A stretch of DNA of 49,441 nt from an uncultured Pseudomonadota bacterium (GTDB lineage: Bacteria > Pseudomonadota > Alphaproteobacteria > Rs-D84 > CASDRH01): positions 1 through 49,441 of the forward strand of contig CASDRH010000040.1 in NCBI GenBank assembly GCA_949283075.1, given 5' to 3'. Made by a program: the position numbers and the translations under genes. The notes under the pieces were generated by a model. The model was not told where the DNA came from and ran no database searches. It was given only the letters and a program-made list of their open reading frames with translations. The first letter of the stretch is position 1, and each line of letters begins with the position of its first letter. Positions 32,979-48,529 of this stretch are shown here, one piece after another.

Positions 32979-33064
32979 TGGTGCGACTGAGAGGATTTGA
33001 ACCTCCACAAGGAAACCTTATAGCGACCTCAACGCTACGCGTCTACCAGTTCCGCCACAATCGC
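32979..33064 (-). tRNA. tRNA-Leu (GAG)
   Basis: 86 bases. The acceptor stem GCGATTG / CAGTCGC (one T-G pair) is followed by an encoded CCA. The anticodon loop TTGAGGT between TAGCG and CGCTA gives anticodon GAG. The long variable arm is that of a class II tRNA, and the T-loop is GTTCAAATC. The 5' end is 5 bases after the stop of the gene at 33070 and the 3' end is 4 bases from the ligA stop, so it probably matures from the tail of the upstream mRNA. Confidence 0.96.
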
Positions 33065-33069
33065 ATATA

Positions 33070-35052
33070 TTAATTTCTATTACCTCCGCCACCAGAACTA
33101 TTATTATTTTTAGCTTCTTGAATATAAGAATAACAATTATTCAATTTAATTTTAATATCAGATATCGCCATACCATTCATAGTAGCATCATTTCTACAAA
33201 TTTCACAATCATCAGACTGCTCATAAACATTTTTTACATTAACATTTCCAGTAGTCAAAGATTGATTATTTAAAACACTACAAACCTGAGAAACATAAGA
33301 ACGTAAAGTAGTTTGATTCATATTGTTAGAAATCTGATTAATCAATCCATAAGCAGAATTCATATTATTAACAGAAGTAATAACATTAGAAGAAGTATTA
33401 TTTATATTATTACCAATAACACGAGCCACAGCAGATAAAGTATTACCATAACACAAAGTCAAAGCACGATGAACGTCAGATGCATAACCAACAGCACGAA
33501 CAACTTTTGCACCAGACATAGCACTAGCATCACTATCAAAAGAAATTAAATTTGTATTATATGTTCCACCATCAATATTAGTATCAGCAAACAAAGAATT
33601 CATTGCACTAAGAGTATTTCCAGTAGGCAATCTACCCAATCCACCAGAAGAAGAATCAGAGGTTCCTAAACGAGGTAAACTACTACCAGCTTTAATTTCA
33701 TCTGGAGAAGGTAAACCTCCACCAACACCACTCAAAGCATTCATCATAGAAGAAGAATCAAATTTACATAAAGCTGTATCATTTTCTGTTAAACTATCAA
33801 TATACATTTTTAAAGGTTGAACATAAGGAGAAATATCATCCATACAACCAAAATCAATATTAGCCATTAAATTAGGAGATTTCATAGCAATTAAAATAGT
33901 ATCTTCAAATTCACTCATAAAAGTTTTAGCTAAATCATAATAATTAGATAAAGCAACACGAACCTCACTAACCTTCGCATTAACAGAACATGTATAGTAA
34001 TATTTACTACCTTTTTCATTAAAAGGAGCATTAATCTTAACACCAGCAGACCCATCTAAATTAGGCCCCTGAGCAATAGATGGCCCGGGATTATATTCAA
34101 CAACATCAGAATCTAATCCTAAACTATACTTCTTGTCTTTATCCTCATTAGTATAATAATCATAATACAATGTTCCATTCCTAGGATCTCTTGGTTCTTT
34201 TACCGCTTTATCAGGTCTAAACCACATCAAACCACTTTTATTTGCAACATCATCATTTTGACCAAAGTCAACTTTCTGATAACCAATAACATTTTTAGCA
34301 TCATCAATCATCGTTCCTATTTGATTTAAATTCTTTTTCAAAGCATTCAAACGCTCCACCATATCAGTCTCAGGAGTGCGACTAGCTTCAATTCTTGCCT
34401 TTTCTTCTTGTTCTATACGCATTTGTTCCATTTTCAAATCAGCTTCTGCTTGTATTCTAGCAGCTTCCGCTTGTGCTTGAGCCTGTGCTTGAGCAGCAGC
34501 TTCTTGAGCCTGTGCTTGCGCTTGAGCAGCGGCAGCCTCAGCCTGTGCTTGTGCTTGAGCTGTTTGAGCCTCTAATTGTGCTTGTTGTTGCGCAGCAGCT
34601 TCTGCATTAGCAGATGCTTGATTAGCATAAGAAACAGCGATATTTGGAACAACATCATAACAAGAATAAATATATTGAGAACCTGAGCTTAACAAACAAG
34701 CATATCCCATTTCTTTATTAACATTTATATCAGAACAAGATGAACCAGAACAAGAACTATCAAAACATTCACGTAAAACTTTTTCACAATTAGGCTTACC
34801 AATACTATAATTACTTATACATTCTTTACCTTTTGTTTCACAAGTTTTATCACCAGGATTCATTAAACCTGTTTCTTTATCAAAGTAAGGAACGCAACGC
34901 TTAAAAATTGGCATACATTCAACTTTAGAAATTTTTTTCTTAGAAGCAGACAAAGAATCAAAAATAAAAAAATCAAAGATTAACAAAGAAAGACTGGATA
35001 AAACACCAGCATAAATAAATTTTTTAAAAAAAGAAAATTTCATAAATTGCAT
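33070..35052 (-). CDS. Large exported Cys-containing protein with Ala/Gln-rich coiled coil
   Basis: About 660 residues. A signal segment (FIYAGVLSSLSLLIFDFFIF) is followed by a Cys-rich N-terminal domain (about 45-145, with CEKVLRECFDSSC and further cysteines). An Ala/Gln/Glu coiled coil (about 150-230) comes next. The C-terminal half is Ser/Asn/Gly-rich with scattered cysteines (SQVCSVL, CEICRND) and a Gly/Asn tail. The Cys motif and the SYVSQ element link it to the 301-residue exported protein at 27429. No known family. GGGAG just before ATG 35052 favours this start; ATG 35043 is also possible. tRNA-Leu follows the stop. Confidence 0.75.
   Translation of the reverse strand: MQFMKFSFFKKFIYAGVLSSLSLLIFDFFIFDSLSASKKKISKVECMPIFKRCVPYFDKETGLMNPGDKTCETKGKECISNYSIGKPNCEKVLRECFDSSCSGSSCSDINVNKEMGYACLLSSGSQYIYSCYDVVPNIAVSYANQASANAEAAAQQQAQLEAQTAQAQAQAEAAAAQAQAQAQEAAAQAQAQAQAEAARIQAEADLKMEQMRIEQEEKARIEASRTPETDMVERLNALKKNLNQIGTMIDDAKNVIGYQKVDFGQNDDVANKSGLMWFRPDKAVKEPRDPRNGTLYYDYYTNEDKDKKYSLGLDSDVVEYNPGPSIAQGPNLDGSAGVKINAPFNEKGSKYYYTCSVNAKVSEVRVALSNYYDLAKTFMSEFEDTILIAMKSPNLMANIDFGCMDDISPYVQPLKMYIDSLTENDTALCKFDSSSMMNALSGVGGGLPSPDEIKAGSSLPRLGTSDSSSGGLGRLPTGNTLSAMNSLFADTNIDGGTYNTNLISFDSDASAMSGAKVVRAVGYASDVHRALTLCYGNTLSAVARVIGNNINNTSSNVITSVNNMNSAYGLINQISNNMNQTTLRSYVSQVCSVLNNQSLTTGNVNVKNVYEQSDDCEICRNDATMNGMAISDIKIKLNNCYSYIQEAKNNNSSGGGGNRN
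34390..34625 (-). repeat. Low-complexity repeat coding for Ala/Gln coiled coil
   Basis: Short units of about 6-12 bases built on GCTCAAGCACAG-type codons (read on the minus strand) recur here and encode repeated AQAQAQA / EAAAQA blocks. Such a tract can slip during replication, so its length may vary between strains. Confidence 0.7.
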
Positions 35053-35117
35053 AAAACTCCCTCTAACATAGAATTGTATCACAAAAAGAAAAAACAGTCA
35101 AAACAAATACATAAAAA

Positions 35118-38493: not shown

Positions 38494-39030
38494 TTAGAAT
38501 TCAATTAAATTAGGGTCAACACGAGAAATACCAATCTCCGGCATAGCAGACATCAAATCCATAATCCTAACCACATAAGAAGAACATTGATTCTTAAAAA
38601 CATCACAAGATGCTTTGCATTTATTTATAACCCCACTTCTAGCTCCAGAGCAACCGACAAAACTATCACATTGTTGGCTAAAGGAAACTCCAATACTATT
38701 TGTTGATGTATATTGATATATATTTTTGCCACTACAGTTAATTGATTGACTACTATCTCCTCCACCAAGACCAGAGCAATGTTGACTACTTACTAGACTT
38801 TCACTAACATTCTCACAAGGTTTAGCACATTGTTCATACTTTTGATTAATATTACCATCAGCACATACAACAGGAACAACTAAATTCGGGTCCTTAACAT
38901 CAGCAGCAAAAACTTCACTTTGCCAAGAACCAAAAATCATTGCAAGAAACATAAAAGTAATTTTAGCAATTTTATTATTTGATTTATTTTCATTAAAAAT
39001 ATTTGTTTGTGTATTTACTATTTTTTCCAT
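38494..39030 (-). CDS. Exported Cys-rich protein of unknown function
   Basis: 178 residues. A signal peptide (AKITFMFLAMIFGSWQSEVFAAD) comes after an unusually long, polar N-terminal extension of about 20 residues. The mature part of about 135 residues has 13 cysteines, spaced CADGNINQKYEQCAKPC...HCSG...NCSG...QCDSFVGCSG...KCKASCDVFKNQC. It is probably disulfide-rich and small. No family recognised. AAGGAAAG is six or seven bases before the ATG at 39030. The gene is downstream of msbA, behind its own promoter and a long structured leader. Confidence 0.7.
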   Translation of the reverse strand: MEKIVNTQTNIFNENKSNNKIAKITFMFLAMIFGSWQSEVFAADVKDPNLVVPVVCADGNINQKYEQCAKPCENVSESLVSSQHCSGLGGGDSSQSINCSGKNIYQYTSTNSIGVSFSQQCDSFVGCSGARSGVINKCKASCDVFKNQCSSYVVRIMDLMSAMPEIGISRVDPNLIEF

Positions 39031-39061
39031 AGCTCTTTCCTTCCTTGTTTTTTAGTTTAAC

Positions 39062-39255
39062 AAAAACTGACCACCCTTTCAGCAATCAGCTGGAAGTTAG
39101 TAACTATACTTGAAAATAGTGTGATATATTCACCACAAAGACAATATGCAAAAGCATATTGAAATTTGATTTATTCAATCACCTTCCAGCATTGCACTGG
39201 ACGGCTGTTTTTTTCAAGTTAAGGCTACTAAACCTCGGGCATATCTCTATGCTTA
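39062..39255 (-). promoter_or_regulatory. Long structured RNA leader (candidate cis-regulatory RNA or small RNA)
   Basis: Read on the minus strand from the predicted start near 39255. First comes a hairpin GCATA-GAGA-TATGC (39252-39239) with a GNRA-type loop. Then nested helices follow: AAAAAC (39212-39207) with GTTTTT (39067-39062); CCGTCC (39204-39199) with GGGTGG (39076-39071, two G-U pairs); GCAAT (39195-39191) with ATTGC (39086-39082); and GCTGGAAG (39190-39183) with CTTCCAGC (39096-39089). The enclosed part has further hairpins, for example CAATATGC-TTTT-GCATATTG and smaller ones. It matches no riboswitch or small RNA motif that I know. Confidence 0.6.
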
Positions 39256-39261
39256 AAAAAC

Positions 39262-39289
39262 ATTATAAAATTTTTTAAGAATTTTGCAA
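39262..39289 (-). promoter_or_regulatory. Putative promoter of the structured leader and Cys-rich gene
   Basis: On the minus strand TTGCAA (39289-39284), a 16-base spacer and a perfect TATAAT (39267-39262). It sits between the msbA stop and the structured leader. Confidence 0.6.
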
Positions 39290-39322
39290 GATTATAAAAA
39301 AGTCAAAATAACATTTATAACA

Positions 39323-44033: not shown

Positions 44034-47000
44034 ATGAACTATTTCTTGATTTTGATGATGGCTATAACTATGGCTAGCTATCAATATTATAATTATATTC
44101 GTGGTTTTATTTCAGATAAAAATGAAGTTGGGACAATTGAAGAAAATCAATTAAGATATCAAATCAATTGTATGAAACGTCGCCAAGCAAAATTATTAGG
44201 TGATAATAACACTTCAAAAACAAAAGTTCCAATTAATGCAACATTAAGCACTTCAAAAGAAGATTGTTTAGTTGATTCTTCTATGTTTAGCCGTAAATTC
44301 TGCTCTGATACATCAGGAACTTTAATTGCGACAAACACGACAAGTGGAGAAGCTTGCTTTGCAGATAAAAACTCTATTCAGTATGTTATTACATTTTTAG
44401 ATACTCCAATAACAAAAGATTTTTACGGTTTAATGATTAAAGAAAATGCTGCTTTTGTATCTGATTCTGGAGAATTTGTCGGAAGCGAAGGTGCATCAGG
44501 TATGTCCAAAAAAGTTATTGCAGGATTAAAAGAATTAGGTTTGGATTTAATCAACCTTCCAATGGTGGTTTTTGCTGTAAAAACATCTGAATTAGAAGAA
44601 ATAATCCAAAAAAATGAAAATAACAAAAATATGAATGAGCAAGAAACTTTGAAATTCTGCGAAGTTCCACCAGAACGACCAACAACAGCTTGTTTAGCAG
44701 GCTGGCAATATATTGGAGATGCTTGTAATTGGTATTGTCCATCAGCGACAAAAAGTATGATAAATGCCCTTGCTATGCAAAAGGGTTGCGGAAAACACGA
44801 AAGAGTTATATTACAATCAAGTCTTGCCGGAGTTTATGATTGTGTAAAAGATTACGATGATGCAAATAAAGTATGTGGAGAAATGGGAAGATTTGCAGAA
44901 TGGAGCGAAGCTGGCAGAACATTTGTATGTGCTGAAAAAAGGAAATCAGAAGCTGGTTGTTCAATTTGCCAAGTTCCAAAGATTATGCCTGACGGAAAAT
45001 GGGCTTGTTCTCAACCATCAAGCGATTCAGCTTCTATAAGCTTTGATACAGGTTCAGGAACTGCAACAATGCTTAAATATCAATGGAATAACGAAGGAAA
45101 TAGCGATGTTCAAGCTATAAAGATTGCAGGTTGTTTAAAAGATTGCGATATGAAAAATGCTACTCTAATATGGGATGCAAGCCAAAGGTTATGGAAATGT
45201 CATTCTTGTAAACCTAATCAACAATTTGATTTAAAGACAGGAACTTGTAAGACAATAGAATGTGCTGGTTCTTTGATATACGATGAAGAATTAGGTCGTT
45301 GCGTTCCTGTTAAATGGTGTAAAGTAAGCTCTGCAGATAAGGCAAGAGGTATATTCGTTGGTAATTCAAAAGGAGTATGTCCTGGCCCAAGTAAAGAGCA
45401 AAATATTGCAACATCAACAGGTTCTACATCATCAGTTGTGAAAGAAGAAGTATCAACATTATACAGAAAAACTTATAATCCAATTGATAAATGTTTTTAT
45501 TGTAGAATCAATATTCCTATTCCAATTATAGAAAACGGAGCTAAATTGAAATTACCCGAAATATTCAATAACTTAATTGGTATGATTTCAAGTATAAAAT
45601 TAATATCATCAGCAAATGCACAAGAAACTATTGATAATAGCGGATACCAAGATGCAATAGATGGAGAAAAATTTACAATTCAACCAAATTTATATCCTCC
45701 TTATGCAATAGGAAATAATCCTATGTATCTTGATAGTACAATTTTCAAAAATACTTCAGAAAAAGAAATTGGATATTGTAATCAAGAAACCGACTTCCCT
45801 GCAAACTCAACAGTTGGTTCTCCTGTATGTATCAATTGTGCTACAGCTGGAAACAGGAGCCAATGCTCAACAGCTAGCAGAACAATCATAGAAGATAAAG
45901 ATAATGCAAGATACAATGTTATTGCAGGTTATCAAGTATCTAATGGATTTTCATCAGGTTTAGGTGGAGATATGAAAAGCATTGAAACAGCTTGGATAAA
46001 TTCAGGAGAATGCTTTTTTACATGTAATTCAACAAACGTAAACTGTGGAGTAAAAAAAGGATTTAAAAGACTATTTAGAAATTCAAACGTAAATAAATCA
46101 GCAGAATGTGATAGCAAATATAACTTCTTAGCAGTAAATTCAGGAACAGGAGCTGGATTTGACATAACAGCAGGCGGTTGGTCAGGAGCATTCCGTGACT
46201 GGGCAGACAATTACAAATCATACGGTTGGTCAATGGCAGAAGTTCCAGATGATTTAAAAGCATCTGTAGGACAATTACCAGATAAGAAATATTCATCAAA
46301 TTTAAATGATCCAAATCAAAAAATAAATCTCTGCTCTATATACATAGAAAACAAAGAATATCCAGGCTTATATAAAACAACAATATATATGGTTGACCGA
46401 GATACAGGAAAAACAATATGCGTTCCTAAACTATCAATCACAGTTCCCCCTGGAAACTATGATTTAGACGACGATGTATATAATGGAGATTCGTGTGCAA
46501 GCAAATTCGGAACATCAGCTTGTATTGGAAACATAATTGAAGATACATCAAAAATACCAGGATTAACCCCACCAGGAGGATCAACATTAACCCCAGAAAC
46601 TCCGGTATCAGATTTAATATTCAGCAATTCATTTGAATGCGATATAGCAACAGGTTGCAAAGTTGACGCTCAACCACCAAAAGCTTGTGCTGATATTAAC
46701 GACAGTAAAAAGACAATATATGAGTATATAATTGAACAAGCAGTATCTGCAGGCTCAATTTCACAACCAGGAAGAGAAGACATAAATAAAAAGCCAACAG
46801 GACAAAGAGGAAAATTTGAATGTCCTGCAGGATACAGACTTGCTGTAACTTGGAAATTTGATTTAGCACATACTTGTGAAGCGAAAGATTCAACATGTGA
46901 AATACAAATTTTAAGGAATAATTGTATGTTCTGTGAAAAAGTCCTATTCGGAGCAGCCCCAGGAGATACATTAACAGGATCAGCAGATGACGTCGCAGCT

Positions 47001-47942
47001 TCATTAGGAGAAAATGGACCAACAAAAGAAACTCATTCAGCTGCAGCAAACTATTATTTAATGCAACCAGATACTTTTGATGCAGGAAAAGCTTCAAAAT
47101 ACGTATGGCACGTTGACCCAAGAAAATCAGTTGCAGAAAACGCAACAACACCTTGCCCAGAAGATAAATGTGTTGACCCATTTTCTTTTGATATAACAGC
47201 TTTAAATACTCCATCAATTGAAGAATTTGCAGATATAGCAAAAGGAAAAGGAAATATAGGATTAACAGCAGAAAAGAATCCTGTTGGCATCTGCCCTGCT
47301 GGTATGATTGAAACAAAAAGTAAGGATAGAACATATATATCTTGTTATCCTTATAACAGAAGCCCAGCAAGAGTTTTATGTCCACTTGCAAAAGAATATG
47401 ATAAAGGAGATAATAATATATTAGTTGATACAAGTAAAAATACTTCTGACAAAACAGGTGCAATTCAACGACCTGGTTGTGATATAGGAAACAAACTTGC
47501 ATATGATGAATCAACAAGAACATTTATATGTCAAGCACATGGAGATAGAAATGACAGAGAATGTCGTCCAGGATACGAATTACAACCTGTATTGACAACA
47601 GTAAAAGATAAAGAAACAAATAAAGAAACTATAGCAATAGTGTTCAAATGTAAAAAATATGATGTAAATATTCAAGACTATGTTTTAACTTGTACAGATG
47701 GTTTAACTAATCCAAGTGATGCTGGTTTAGCAAATATTACAATTGAAAGATGTCCAGTAGGATTTTATGAAAAAAGACACTGGTCAGCATCTAAATCAAC
47801 AAACGTATCTGATTCACAAAATGAACAATGTATTATGCATGATGTAAGTAAAGATGTAGCAAATGATGAGTTTGCAAGACCTTTAACATTAAAAAGATAT
47901 ACATCAATAGTATTGATTGGTGATTGTAGAATATGTATGTAA
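44034..47942 (+). CDS. Giant Cys-rich envelope protein, 1302 residues, unknown function
   Basis: The largest gene here. A short N-terminal hydrophobic helix (YFLILMMAITMASYQYYNYI) acts as a signal or anchor. The rest is soluble and holds about 60 cysteines, many in repeated short blocks such as CPAGY, CPAGMIE, CRPGYEL and CPVGFYEK, or as CxxC pairs (CSIC, CHSC, CFYC, CMFC, CRIC at the very end). These look like small EGF- or growth-factor-receptor-like disulfide knots, but I cannot assign a family. GGGAGG is well placed before the ATG at 44034. A surface or outer-membrane location is inferred. Long frames on the other strand here are shadows. Confidence 0.75.
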   Translation: MNYFLILMMAITMASYQYYNYIRGFISDKNEVGTIEENQLRYQINCMKRRQAKLLGDNNTSKTKVPINATLSTSKEDCLVDSSMFSRKFCSDTSGTLIATNTTSGEACFADKNSIQYVITFLDTPITKDFYGLMIKENAAFVSDSGEFVGSEGASGMSKKVIAGLKELGLDLINLPMVVFAVKTSELEEIIQKNENNKNMNEQETLKFCEVPPERPTTACLAGWQYIGDACNWYCPSATKSMINALAMQKGCGKHERVILQSSLAGVYDCVKDYDDANKVCGEMGRFAEWSEAGRTFVCAEKRKSEAGCSICQVPKIMPDGKWACSQPSSDSASISFDTGSGTATMLKYQWNNEGNSDVQAIKIAGCLKDCDMKNATLIWDASQRLWKCHSCKPNQQFDLKTGTCKTIECAGSLIYDEELGRCVPVKWCKVSSADKARGIFVGNSKGVCPGPSKEQNIATSTGSTSSVVKEEVSTLYRKTYNPIDKCFYCRINIPIPIIENGAKLKLPEIFNNLIGMISSIKLISSANAQETIDNSGYQDAIDGEKFTIQPNLYPPYAIGNNPMYLDSTIFKNTSEKEIGYCNQETDFPANSTVGSPVCINCATAGNRSQCSTASRTIIEDKDNARYNVIAGYQVSNGFSSGLGGDMKSIETAWINSGECFFTCNSTNVNCGVKKGFKRLFRNSNVNKSAECDSKYNFLAVNSGTGAGFDITAGGWSGAFRDWADNYKSYGWSMAEVPDDLKASVGQLPDKKYSSNLNDPNQKINLCSIYIENKEYPGLYKTTIYMVDRDTGKTICVPKLSITVPPGNYDLDDDVYNGDSCASKFGTSACIGNIIEDTSKIPGLTPPGGSTLTPETPVSDLIFSNSFECDIATGCKVDAQPPKACADINDSKKTIYEYIIEQAVSAGSISQPGREDINKKPTGQRGKFECPAGYRLAVTWKFDLAHTCEAKDSTCEIQILRNNCMFCEKVLFGAAPGDTLTGSADDVAASLGENGPTKETHSAAANYYLMQPDTFDAGKASKYVWHVDPRKSVAENATTPCPEDKCVDPFSFDITALNTPSIEEFADIAKGKGNIGLTAEKNPVGICPAGMIETKSKDRTYISCYPYNRSPARVLCPLAKEYDKGDNNILVDTSKNTSDKTGAIQRPGCDIGNKLAYDESTRTFICQAHGDRNDRECRPGYELQPVLTTVKDKETNKETIAIVFKCKKYDVNIQDYVLTCTDGLTNPSDAGLANITIERCPVGFYEKRHWSASKSTNVSDSQNEQCIMHDVSKDVANDEFARPLTLKRYTSIVLIGDCRICM

Positions 47943-47995: not shown

Positions 47996-48529
47996 TTATT
48001 TATAAGAATAATAAAAATTACTGCCATCAGGAAAAATAAGATACAAATCAACTTTACAACCATCTGGATATATATCACATTTTTGTTTAAAATCAATTAT
48101 AGCATAACTATTATCTGATTTAGGTGGAACTGAAATTGGTTTTTCTTCCATCGTATTATGTTGATATATAATACCATTATAAGTTACTTGTTCAATAACT
48201 TTCATATATATATTAAAATCCATGTTTCCATTACGATTCATATATATTCTATTATCTTTCATATAAAAATATACTTTGCCAGTAACATTTTTTATATTAG
48301 GAGCATTAGAACTAGTAGAAAGTTCCTTTCCAGAAGCAGTGATAATATTATCTACATTTTCTGTATAATAGTATTTATCCTTAAGTTCTAAAAATGATTT
48401 AGGCTTAGAATCATCGTCACCACCATTTCCTCCTGGATCAGTAGAGTTATTCTTACATCCAATAACAATAAATAAACATAACATAATTACTAATAAAATT
48501 AGCTTATTAAAAATATTTTTAGTTGTCAT
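47996..48529 (-). CDS. Lipoprotein of unknown function
   Basis: About 177 residues from ATG 48529. The lipoprotein signal ends FIVIGCKNNSTD, and a Gly/Asp-rich linker follows (about 30-42). The mature domain is beta-rich with YYYTENVDNI, VYFYMKDNRIYMNRNGNMDF and a late Cys pair (KCDIYPDGCKVDLYLIF). The start follows from GGAGG at 48535-48540, six or seven bases before this ATG. No family recognised. About 280 bases of A+T-rich sequence with no gene separate it from the next lipoprotein. Confidence 0.7.
   Translation of the reverse strand: MTTKNIFNKLILLVIMLCLFIVIGCKNNSTDPGGNGGDDDSKPKSFLELKDKYYYTENVDNIITASGKELSTSSNAPNIKNVTGKVYFYMKDNRIYMNRNGNMDFNIYMKVIEQVTYNGIIYQHNTMEEKPISVPPKSDNSYAIIDFKQKCDIYPDGCKVDLYLIFPDGSNFYYSYK

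Follow-up and report, generated by a model that had tools for sequence, protein, structure and literature searches.

The window, 49,441 nucleotides (positions 1 to 49,441) of contig CASDRH010000040.1 from an uncultured alphaproteobacterium of the order Rs-D84, contains on its minus strand a gene encoding an exported Cys-rich protein, preceded by its own promoter and a long leader RNA (Table 1). Elsewhere the window encodes a class A RNase P RNA (RF00010; 9835-10157, plus strand), a tRNA (32982-33064, minus strand) and two more large Cys-containing, apparently exported proteins without assigned function (33070-35082, minus strand; 44034-47942, plus strand).

Table 1. Features of the leader and its gene, listed from promoter to coding region; positions are those of the window.
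Feature	Position	Strand	Basis or observation
-35 element TTGCAA	39284-39289	-	Sequence; TTGCAAAA conserved 5' of nearly all genomic copies
-10 element TATAAT	39262-39267	-	Sequence; TATAAT kept 5' of nearly all copies
5' hairpin P0, GCATA-GAGA-TATGC	39239-39252	-	Fold
Hairpin H1, GAGG ... CCTT, loop at the a1 position	39221-39236	-	Covaries in own-genome copies and across the order
P2 5' strand (a1-like), in and beside the H1 loop	39224-39229	-	Partner 39099-39104; 98-100% of cells paired
P3 5' strand (b1-like), CTTGAAAA	39211-39218	-	Partner 39109-39116; own-versus-cross pairing
Hairpin A, CCAG ... CTGG, sequesters P4 5' strand	39186-39200	-	Covariation counts and own-versus-cross pairing
P4 5' strand, GCTGGAAG	39183-39190	-	Partner 39089-39096 in nearly every copy; covariation across genomes
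P5 5' strand, GTGAT	39178-39182	-	Strong covariation
P5 internal loop, two GAAUA motifs	39126-39177	-	AAUA ... GAAUA kept from window to sRNA-Xcc1 (by eye)
Variable hairpin P6, inside the P5 internal loop	39142-39161	-	
P5 3' strand, ATCAC	39121-39125	-	Covariation
Hairpin P7, CTAT ... ATAG, loop is P3 3' strand (b'-like)	39104-39119	-	98-100% of cells paired
P2 3' strand (a'-like)	39099-39104	-	Covariation
P4 3' strand, CTTCCAGC	39089-39096	-	Covariation
Terminator-like hairpin, GCTGATTGCT-GAAAG-GGTGGTCAGT plus TTTTGTT	39059-39090	-	-10.2 kcal/mol
Shine-Dalgarno AAGGAAGG and start context AGCTATG	39028-39046	-	GCTATG at 26 of 32 leader genes; complementary to leader ATAGTT
Putatively regulated gene for an exported protein of 178 aa, Cys-rich, C-terminus VDPNLIEF	38494-39030	-	Sequence

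Analysis of the sequence and its predicted fold confirmed the promoter, with 16 bases between TTGCAA and TATAAT, and the 5' hairpin with a GAGA loop described in the original prediction. Judging from these promoter elements, transcription of the leader is expected to start near 39255, giving a leader of about 228 nt up to the ATG at 39030. The further claim of a long structured leader ahead of a Cys-rich exported protein also held, with a folding energy of -65.6 kcal/mol compared to -48.1 +/- 4.4 kcal/mol after dinucleotide shuffling (z = -4.0; no shuffle out of 200 did as well). Most other copies of the leader have a hairpin of differing sequence at the position of P0, as judged by eye. No Rfam family matched the window leader, the matches within the element being at chance level and below the gathering score; known riboswitch classes and ribozymes, including the riboswitches from which the original prediction had set the leader apart, likewise gave no match at the gathering score.

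Rather than being a single new element, the leader is one of about 32 copies in its genome. Searches with blastn found eight related sites within this genome, diverged to 75-83% identity, and only fragments, nothing substantial, in 95 relatives, so that a covariance model was needed. The model built from the eight blastn-found copies (R1) identified 31 full-length copies (E < 2e-7) in 928 kb (a 0.93 Mb genome) as well as a 32nd, weak copy (E = 0.015), likewise located ahead of a family gene, the E-values of such home-made models being rough. The density of leader copies is about one per 29 kb. For nearly every copy with a complete gene, the downstream gene on the same strand encodes an exported, mostly Cys-rich protein, and the distance from the P4 3' strand to the gene is about 50-110 nt.

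The proteins encoded behind the leaders share a conserved C-terminal tail, (I/V)D(P/V)NLIEY/F, a pattern found at 33 places in the genome itself; the other 95 genomes gave a single, doubtful match. Alignment of twelve family members revealed similarity mainly at the end, with a nearly invariant tail and a middle that is free to vary, and the members checked against Pfam and NCBIfam, including the 178-aa protein of the window, had no match. The NLIEY/F family, comprising about 33 exported, mostly Cys-rich proteins, is lineage-specific, and its tail is possibly a sorting or processing signal. The tail genes lacking a leader that we inspected were truncated at contig ends, with one exception (contig C10, 841), an NLIEY-family gene that has the usual promoter and a degenerate leader missed by the model. 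Eight contigs (C3, C4, C6, C7, C8, C19, C30 and C36) end within or beside copies of the leader or gene. These repeats are therefore a probable cause of breaks in the assembly, and the genome may hold more copies than were counted. Strict patterns for the leader type of the window found no copy in other public genome contigs or in viral contigs, and one pattern for the type present in the order found none in viral contigs.

The structure of the leader is proven by covariation. In the 31 distinct genomic copies, which as paralogs are not independent in covariation counts, 98.9% of the cells of P1, P2, hairpin A and P5 were paired and changes on both sides of a pair numbered 63 compared to 18.5 in shuffles; in controls in which these helices were slid, pairing dropped to 24-41%. 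The corresponding values for H1, P4, P5 and P7 in 31 copies were 98.5% and 67 compared to 19.3, a count that takes in P2 as a pseudoknot. P2 (AGTAGC/GTTACT) showed up to four pair types per position. P3 (CTTGAAAA/TTTTCAAG) is variable in length and hence was assessed by own-versus-cross pairing, which gave 8.7 bp with its own partner and 5.2 bp with the partners of other copies. The variety of pair types in P2, P3 and P5 is hard to explain by shared descent alone. The seven inner pairs of P4 (GCTGGAAG/CTTCCAGC) were present in nearly all 31 distinct copies and covaried across genomes. Within the genome itself P4 and P7 hardly vary. In a set of 64 rows (62 of them distinct) from other genomes of the order, by contrast, all of these helices change on both sides, with 230 both-side changes compared to 55 in shuffles and 98.6% of cells paired. 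Variants of P4 in this set include UUGGAGG/CCUCCAA, CAGGAGG/CCUCCUG, CGGGAGG/CCUCCCG and others, and all six pairs of hairpin A formed in a fraction of 0.92 of own combinations compared to 0.53 of cross combinations among the order's copies. RNAalifold applied to the first eight copies returned the second of the two folds described below alone, P3 being misaligned, and anchored counts were used instead.

These data bear on the helices named in the original prediction, one of which, GCTGGAAG/CTTCCAGC, covaries, while the other, CCGTCC/GGGTGG, is unsupported. For the latter, pairing at six of six positions was found in 12% of own combinations and in 16% of combinations with the partners of other copies. 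The helix set proposed there was also incomplete, since the strongest helices, P2, P3 and P5 (GTGAT/ATCAC), had been missed. The broader suggestion of a cis-regulatory RNA or a small RNA with a downstream gene is favored by the covariation and cmscan results. An RNA thermometer-like element, also suggested, is unlikely because the leader contains invariant nucleotides and conserves alternative pairings.

The helices fall into two sets, each supported by covariation, that are mutually exclusive. P3 and P7 cannot easily coexist because the P3 3' strand fills the loop of P7 and leaves no spare nucleotides; hairpin A and P4 both use the P4 5' strand, and H1 and P1 both use GAGG. Given these three overlaps, two conserved folds would alternate. 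Along the RNA, the promoter is followed by P0, H1 (a1), the 5' strand of P3 (b1) and P4, which encloses P5 and P7 with b' as the loop of the latter; the 3' part consists of a', the P4 3' strand, the terminator-like hairpin, the Shine-Dalgarno sequence and the ORF.

The window leader is not unrelated to known RNAs: as far as sequence and covariance models can tell, it is a distant relative of sRNA-Xcc1 (RF02221), and it has the layout of the phage C4 antisense RNA. The relationship to sRNA-Xcc1 emerges through intermediates. The Rfam model itself gave no match to the window copy at E <= 10 or to the genome at E <= 0.1. It did match 25 of the 41 genomes that were searched with it, the best score, for a relative in the order, being 50.7 bits, under the gathering score of 53 bits, and two relatives aligned over the whole 87-nt model. 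A covariance model built from the copies of the window's own genome (R2) matched 104 of 201 genomes of the order (E <= 0.001), and individual loci were matched by R2 and RF02221 alike. A third model (R3), made from the order's relatives alone with the window's genome left out, recovered the window at E = 9.2e-16 and also found bona fide sRNA-Xcc1 loci (E = 1.8e-5 to 8.6e-4). Because R3 matches both, the window leader and sRNA-Xcc1 are statistically homologous by way of these intermediates. In the class, R3 matched 31 of 385 genomes, 27 of them outside the order. Genes behind the order's copies often encode small HTH proteins and exported proteins. The order also holds a second subtype nearer sRNA-Xcc1 (GGTCGGGG...), located before exported, autotransporter-like and HTH genes.

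The same organization could be recognized in 30 loci that RF02221 detected in other parts of the phylum. These bona fide sRNA-Xcc1 loci have an H1 hairpin and a P3 strand upstream of the Rfam core, and in 93% of them an upstream match of at least 7 nt to an a' or b' strand was present, compared to 24% of cross controls. A match at the start region of the downstream gene was present in 63%, compared to 16% in cross controls. Thus, on sequence grounds, the 87-nt Rfam model looks truncated, without H1/a1 and b1, and the loci indicate that sRNA-Xcc1 is the core of a longer leader whose 5' pairing partner is absent from the Rfam model. Among the genes behind these loci are those for SymE and for regulators of the antirepressor families Bro-N, Rha, P22_AR_N and KilA-N, and the downstream gene (SymE or a phage antirepressor) is the likely cis target of sRNA-Xcc1. 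In Xanthomonas, one study located sRNA-Xcc1 ahead of symE within integron cassettes (PMC12444791), and sRNA-Xcc1 has been detected as a discrete 88-nt RNA (PMC2996969). The window leader and sRNA-Xcc1 share P4 enclosing P5, with its AAUA/GAAUA internal loop, and P7, which corresponds to the second of the two hairpins inside the sRNA-Xcc1 model, in identical strand order; at full length, both have H1 and P3 before this core and an ORF after it. In contrast to sRNA-Xcc1, the window leader has an extra hairpin A, a longer P6 and a terminator-like hairpin with a U-run, and lacks a clear antisense match at its own start region.

How the two folds could control the downstream gene is suggested by the sequences between P4 and the start codon. 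The 5' arm of the terminator-like hairpin shares nucleotides with the P4 3' strand (2 nt in the window, as many as 4 nt in relatives), and because of this overlap P4 would act as an antiterminator and hairpin A as its competitor. A hairpin with a U-run follows the P4 3' strand in 17 of the 32 genomic copies, that of the window among them (2.8 expected), and in 44 of 59 relatives (10.4 expected). No such hairpin passed the filter in the other 15 genomic copies, and some copies may thus have an output other than termination. For the window transcript at the end of the U-run, the predicted energies were -63.2 kcal/mol for fold I with the terminator and -56.6 kcal/mol for fold II, and in the full leader the Shine-Dalgarno sequence and GCUAU were predicted to be mostly paired. 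The GCTATG start context, found at 26 of the 32 family genes, was present at none of 103 other long ORFs examined, and nearly all leaders carry ATAG(T/C)T, complementary to the AGCTAT at most family start codons. The AGCTATG context may, however, merely have been inherited with the duplicated leader.

We propose, with a probability of about 0.62, that the leader is a switch of the C4/sRNA-Xcc1 type, present in about 32 paralogous copies, that has two exclusive folds and is OFF by default. In fold I, a' and b' would pair with a1 and b1 (P2 and P3) while hairpin A holds the P4 5' strand. Fold I would be the default OFF state because it leaves the terminator free and because pairing is predicted for both the Shine-Dalgarno sequence and the start codon. 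Fold II would consist of P4 and P7; this state would be ON because the base of the terminator is then used by P4, and P7 occupies the ATAG that can otherwise pair with AGCUAU(G). A shift to fold II would need a signal, which could be the RNA of another copy acting in trans, a protein, processing by RNase P or a ligand. We infer the default OFF state, its opening by P4 and P7 and the signal from these pairings, the OFF direction being that of a thermodynamic model without pseudoknots. A point against the proposal is that the antisense match of a' and b' to the own start region, characteristic of C4, is weak in this genome and absent from the order's copies.

Several other readings of the locus were weighed against this switch. 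The leader could instead act strictly as C4 does, as a trans antisense RNA that is cut by RNase P at the 5' end of P4 and whose core uses a' and b' to block the start regions of target mRNAs. Such a role would fit the order of parts in C4 of phage P1, the detection of sRNA-Xcc1 as a discrete RNA, the matching sequence at the gene starts of bona fide sRNA-Xcc1 loci and the complementarity between ATAG(T/C)T and the family starts. In the window's own genome, matches of at least 7 nt between a' or b' and the own start region were found in 44% of cases, compared to 24% in cross controls; the order's copies, however, showed no signal (19% compared to 14%). Moreover, C4, sRNA-Xcc1 and the relatives have GG...CC ends, the latter two with GG where the outer stem begins, but the window P4 lacks such ends, having GCTGG at its start and TGATT after it, and six base pairs to a start codon are short. 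We therefore consider this reading unlikely. A broader version, in which the 32 leaders form a cross-talking antisense network and any leader could silence other family members in trans, is conceivable because nearly all leaders carry ATAGTT and most family starts lie in AGCTATG, and we regard it as improbable. If true, the set of displayed exported proteins would be chosen at the RNA level, with the variable a and b strands tuning which pairs interact.

The highly conserved core, with a P5 loop bearing two GAAUA motifs and the invariant CUGGAAGG and AACUUCCAG, could also bind a metabolite that stabilizes one fold, making the leader a small-molecule riboswitch. The mutually exclusive folds, the number of copies in a genome and the variable hairpins with U-runs on the 3' side all speak for such an element. 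The genes found across the RNA family (exported proteins, small HTH proteins, antirepressors and SymE) have no common pathway, however, and the a'/a1 and b'/b1 pairs vary freely, which fits an antisense RNA rather than a binding pocket; small-molecule control thus seems rather doubtful. Finally, the copies could be mobile-element ends or integron attC-like sites travelling with a gene cassette family, given that they are numerous and dispersed, that several lie at contig ends and that sRNA-Xcc1 occurs in integron cassettes (PMC12444791). This is very improbable, as each copy precedes its gene on the coding strand, has a promoter of its own and keeps a similar distance, the covariation fits RNA pairs including G-U, the blastn-found copies have diverged as far as described above and pattern searches of viral contigs found none.

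The proposed switch is best compared with C4 RNA of phages P1 and P7 (RF01695). The P1 immI annotation (AF234172) gives a1 at 48255, b1 at 48269, the C4 RNA at 48343-48419, a2 at 48423, b2 at 48452 and icd at 48470, and the P1 sequence could form a hairpin with a1 in its loop; b' falls within the loop of the second hairpin inside the core, and a' immediately 5' of the closing strand. C4 thus shares with the window leader the placement of a1, b' and a' and the order a1, b1, core (outer stem, hairpin, hairpin with the b' loop, a') and gene, all of which the window has within one predicted transcript. C4 was not among the Rfam matches of the window and R3 does not find P1 C4, so the leader can be called built like C4, but no claim of homology to it is made. 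In addition, C4 of P1 is without the GAAUA internal loop, the clear a2 and b2 targets of C4 are missing in the window type, and the gene controlled here belongs to a chromosomal family of exported proteins. Multi-copy use has a precedent in the 21 C4-like RNAs, apparently processed at a GG, that were seen by RNA-seq in Acinetobacter baumannii (PMC5320573).

Riboswitches of the c-di-GMP-I (GEMM) type occur in many copies per genome before genes for exported proteins. The window leader resembles them in copy number and in its position ahead of such genes, but has another fold and no Rfam match. For the order's RNA family, which R2 detected in roughly every second genome of the order that was searched, we found neither an Rfam model nor a report. 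The resemblance to C4 and sRNA-Xcc1 suggests that a control RNA of phage style was taken over to run a whole bacterial gene family. With such an RNA multiplied before a family of secreted proteins, antisense, attenuation and ligand control become directly testable against one another. The leader links phage C4, by its layout, and the integron-associated sRNA-Xcc1, by a chain of homology, to an RNA family of one bacterial order.
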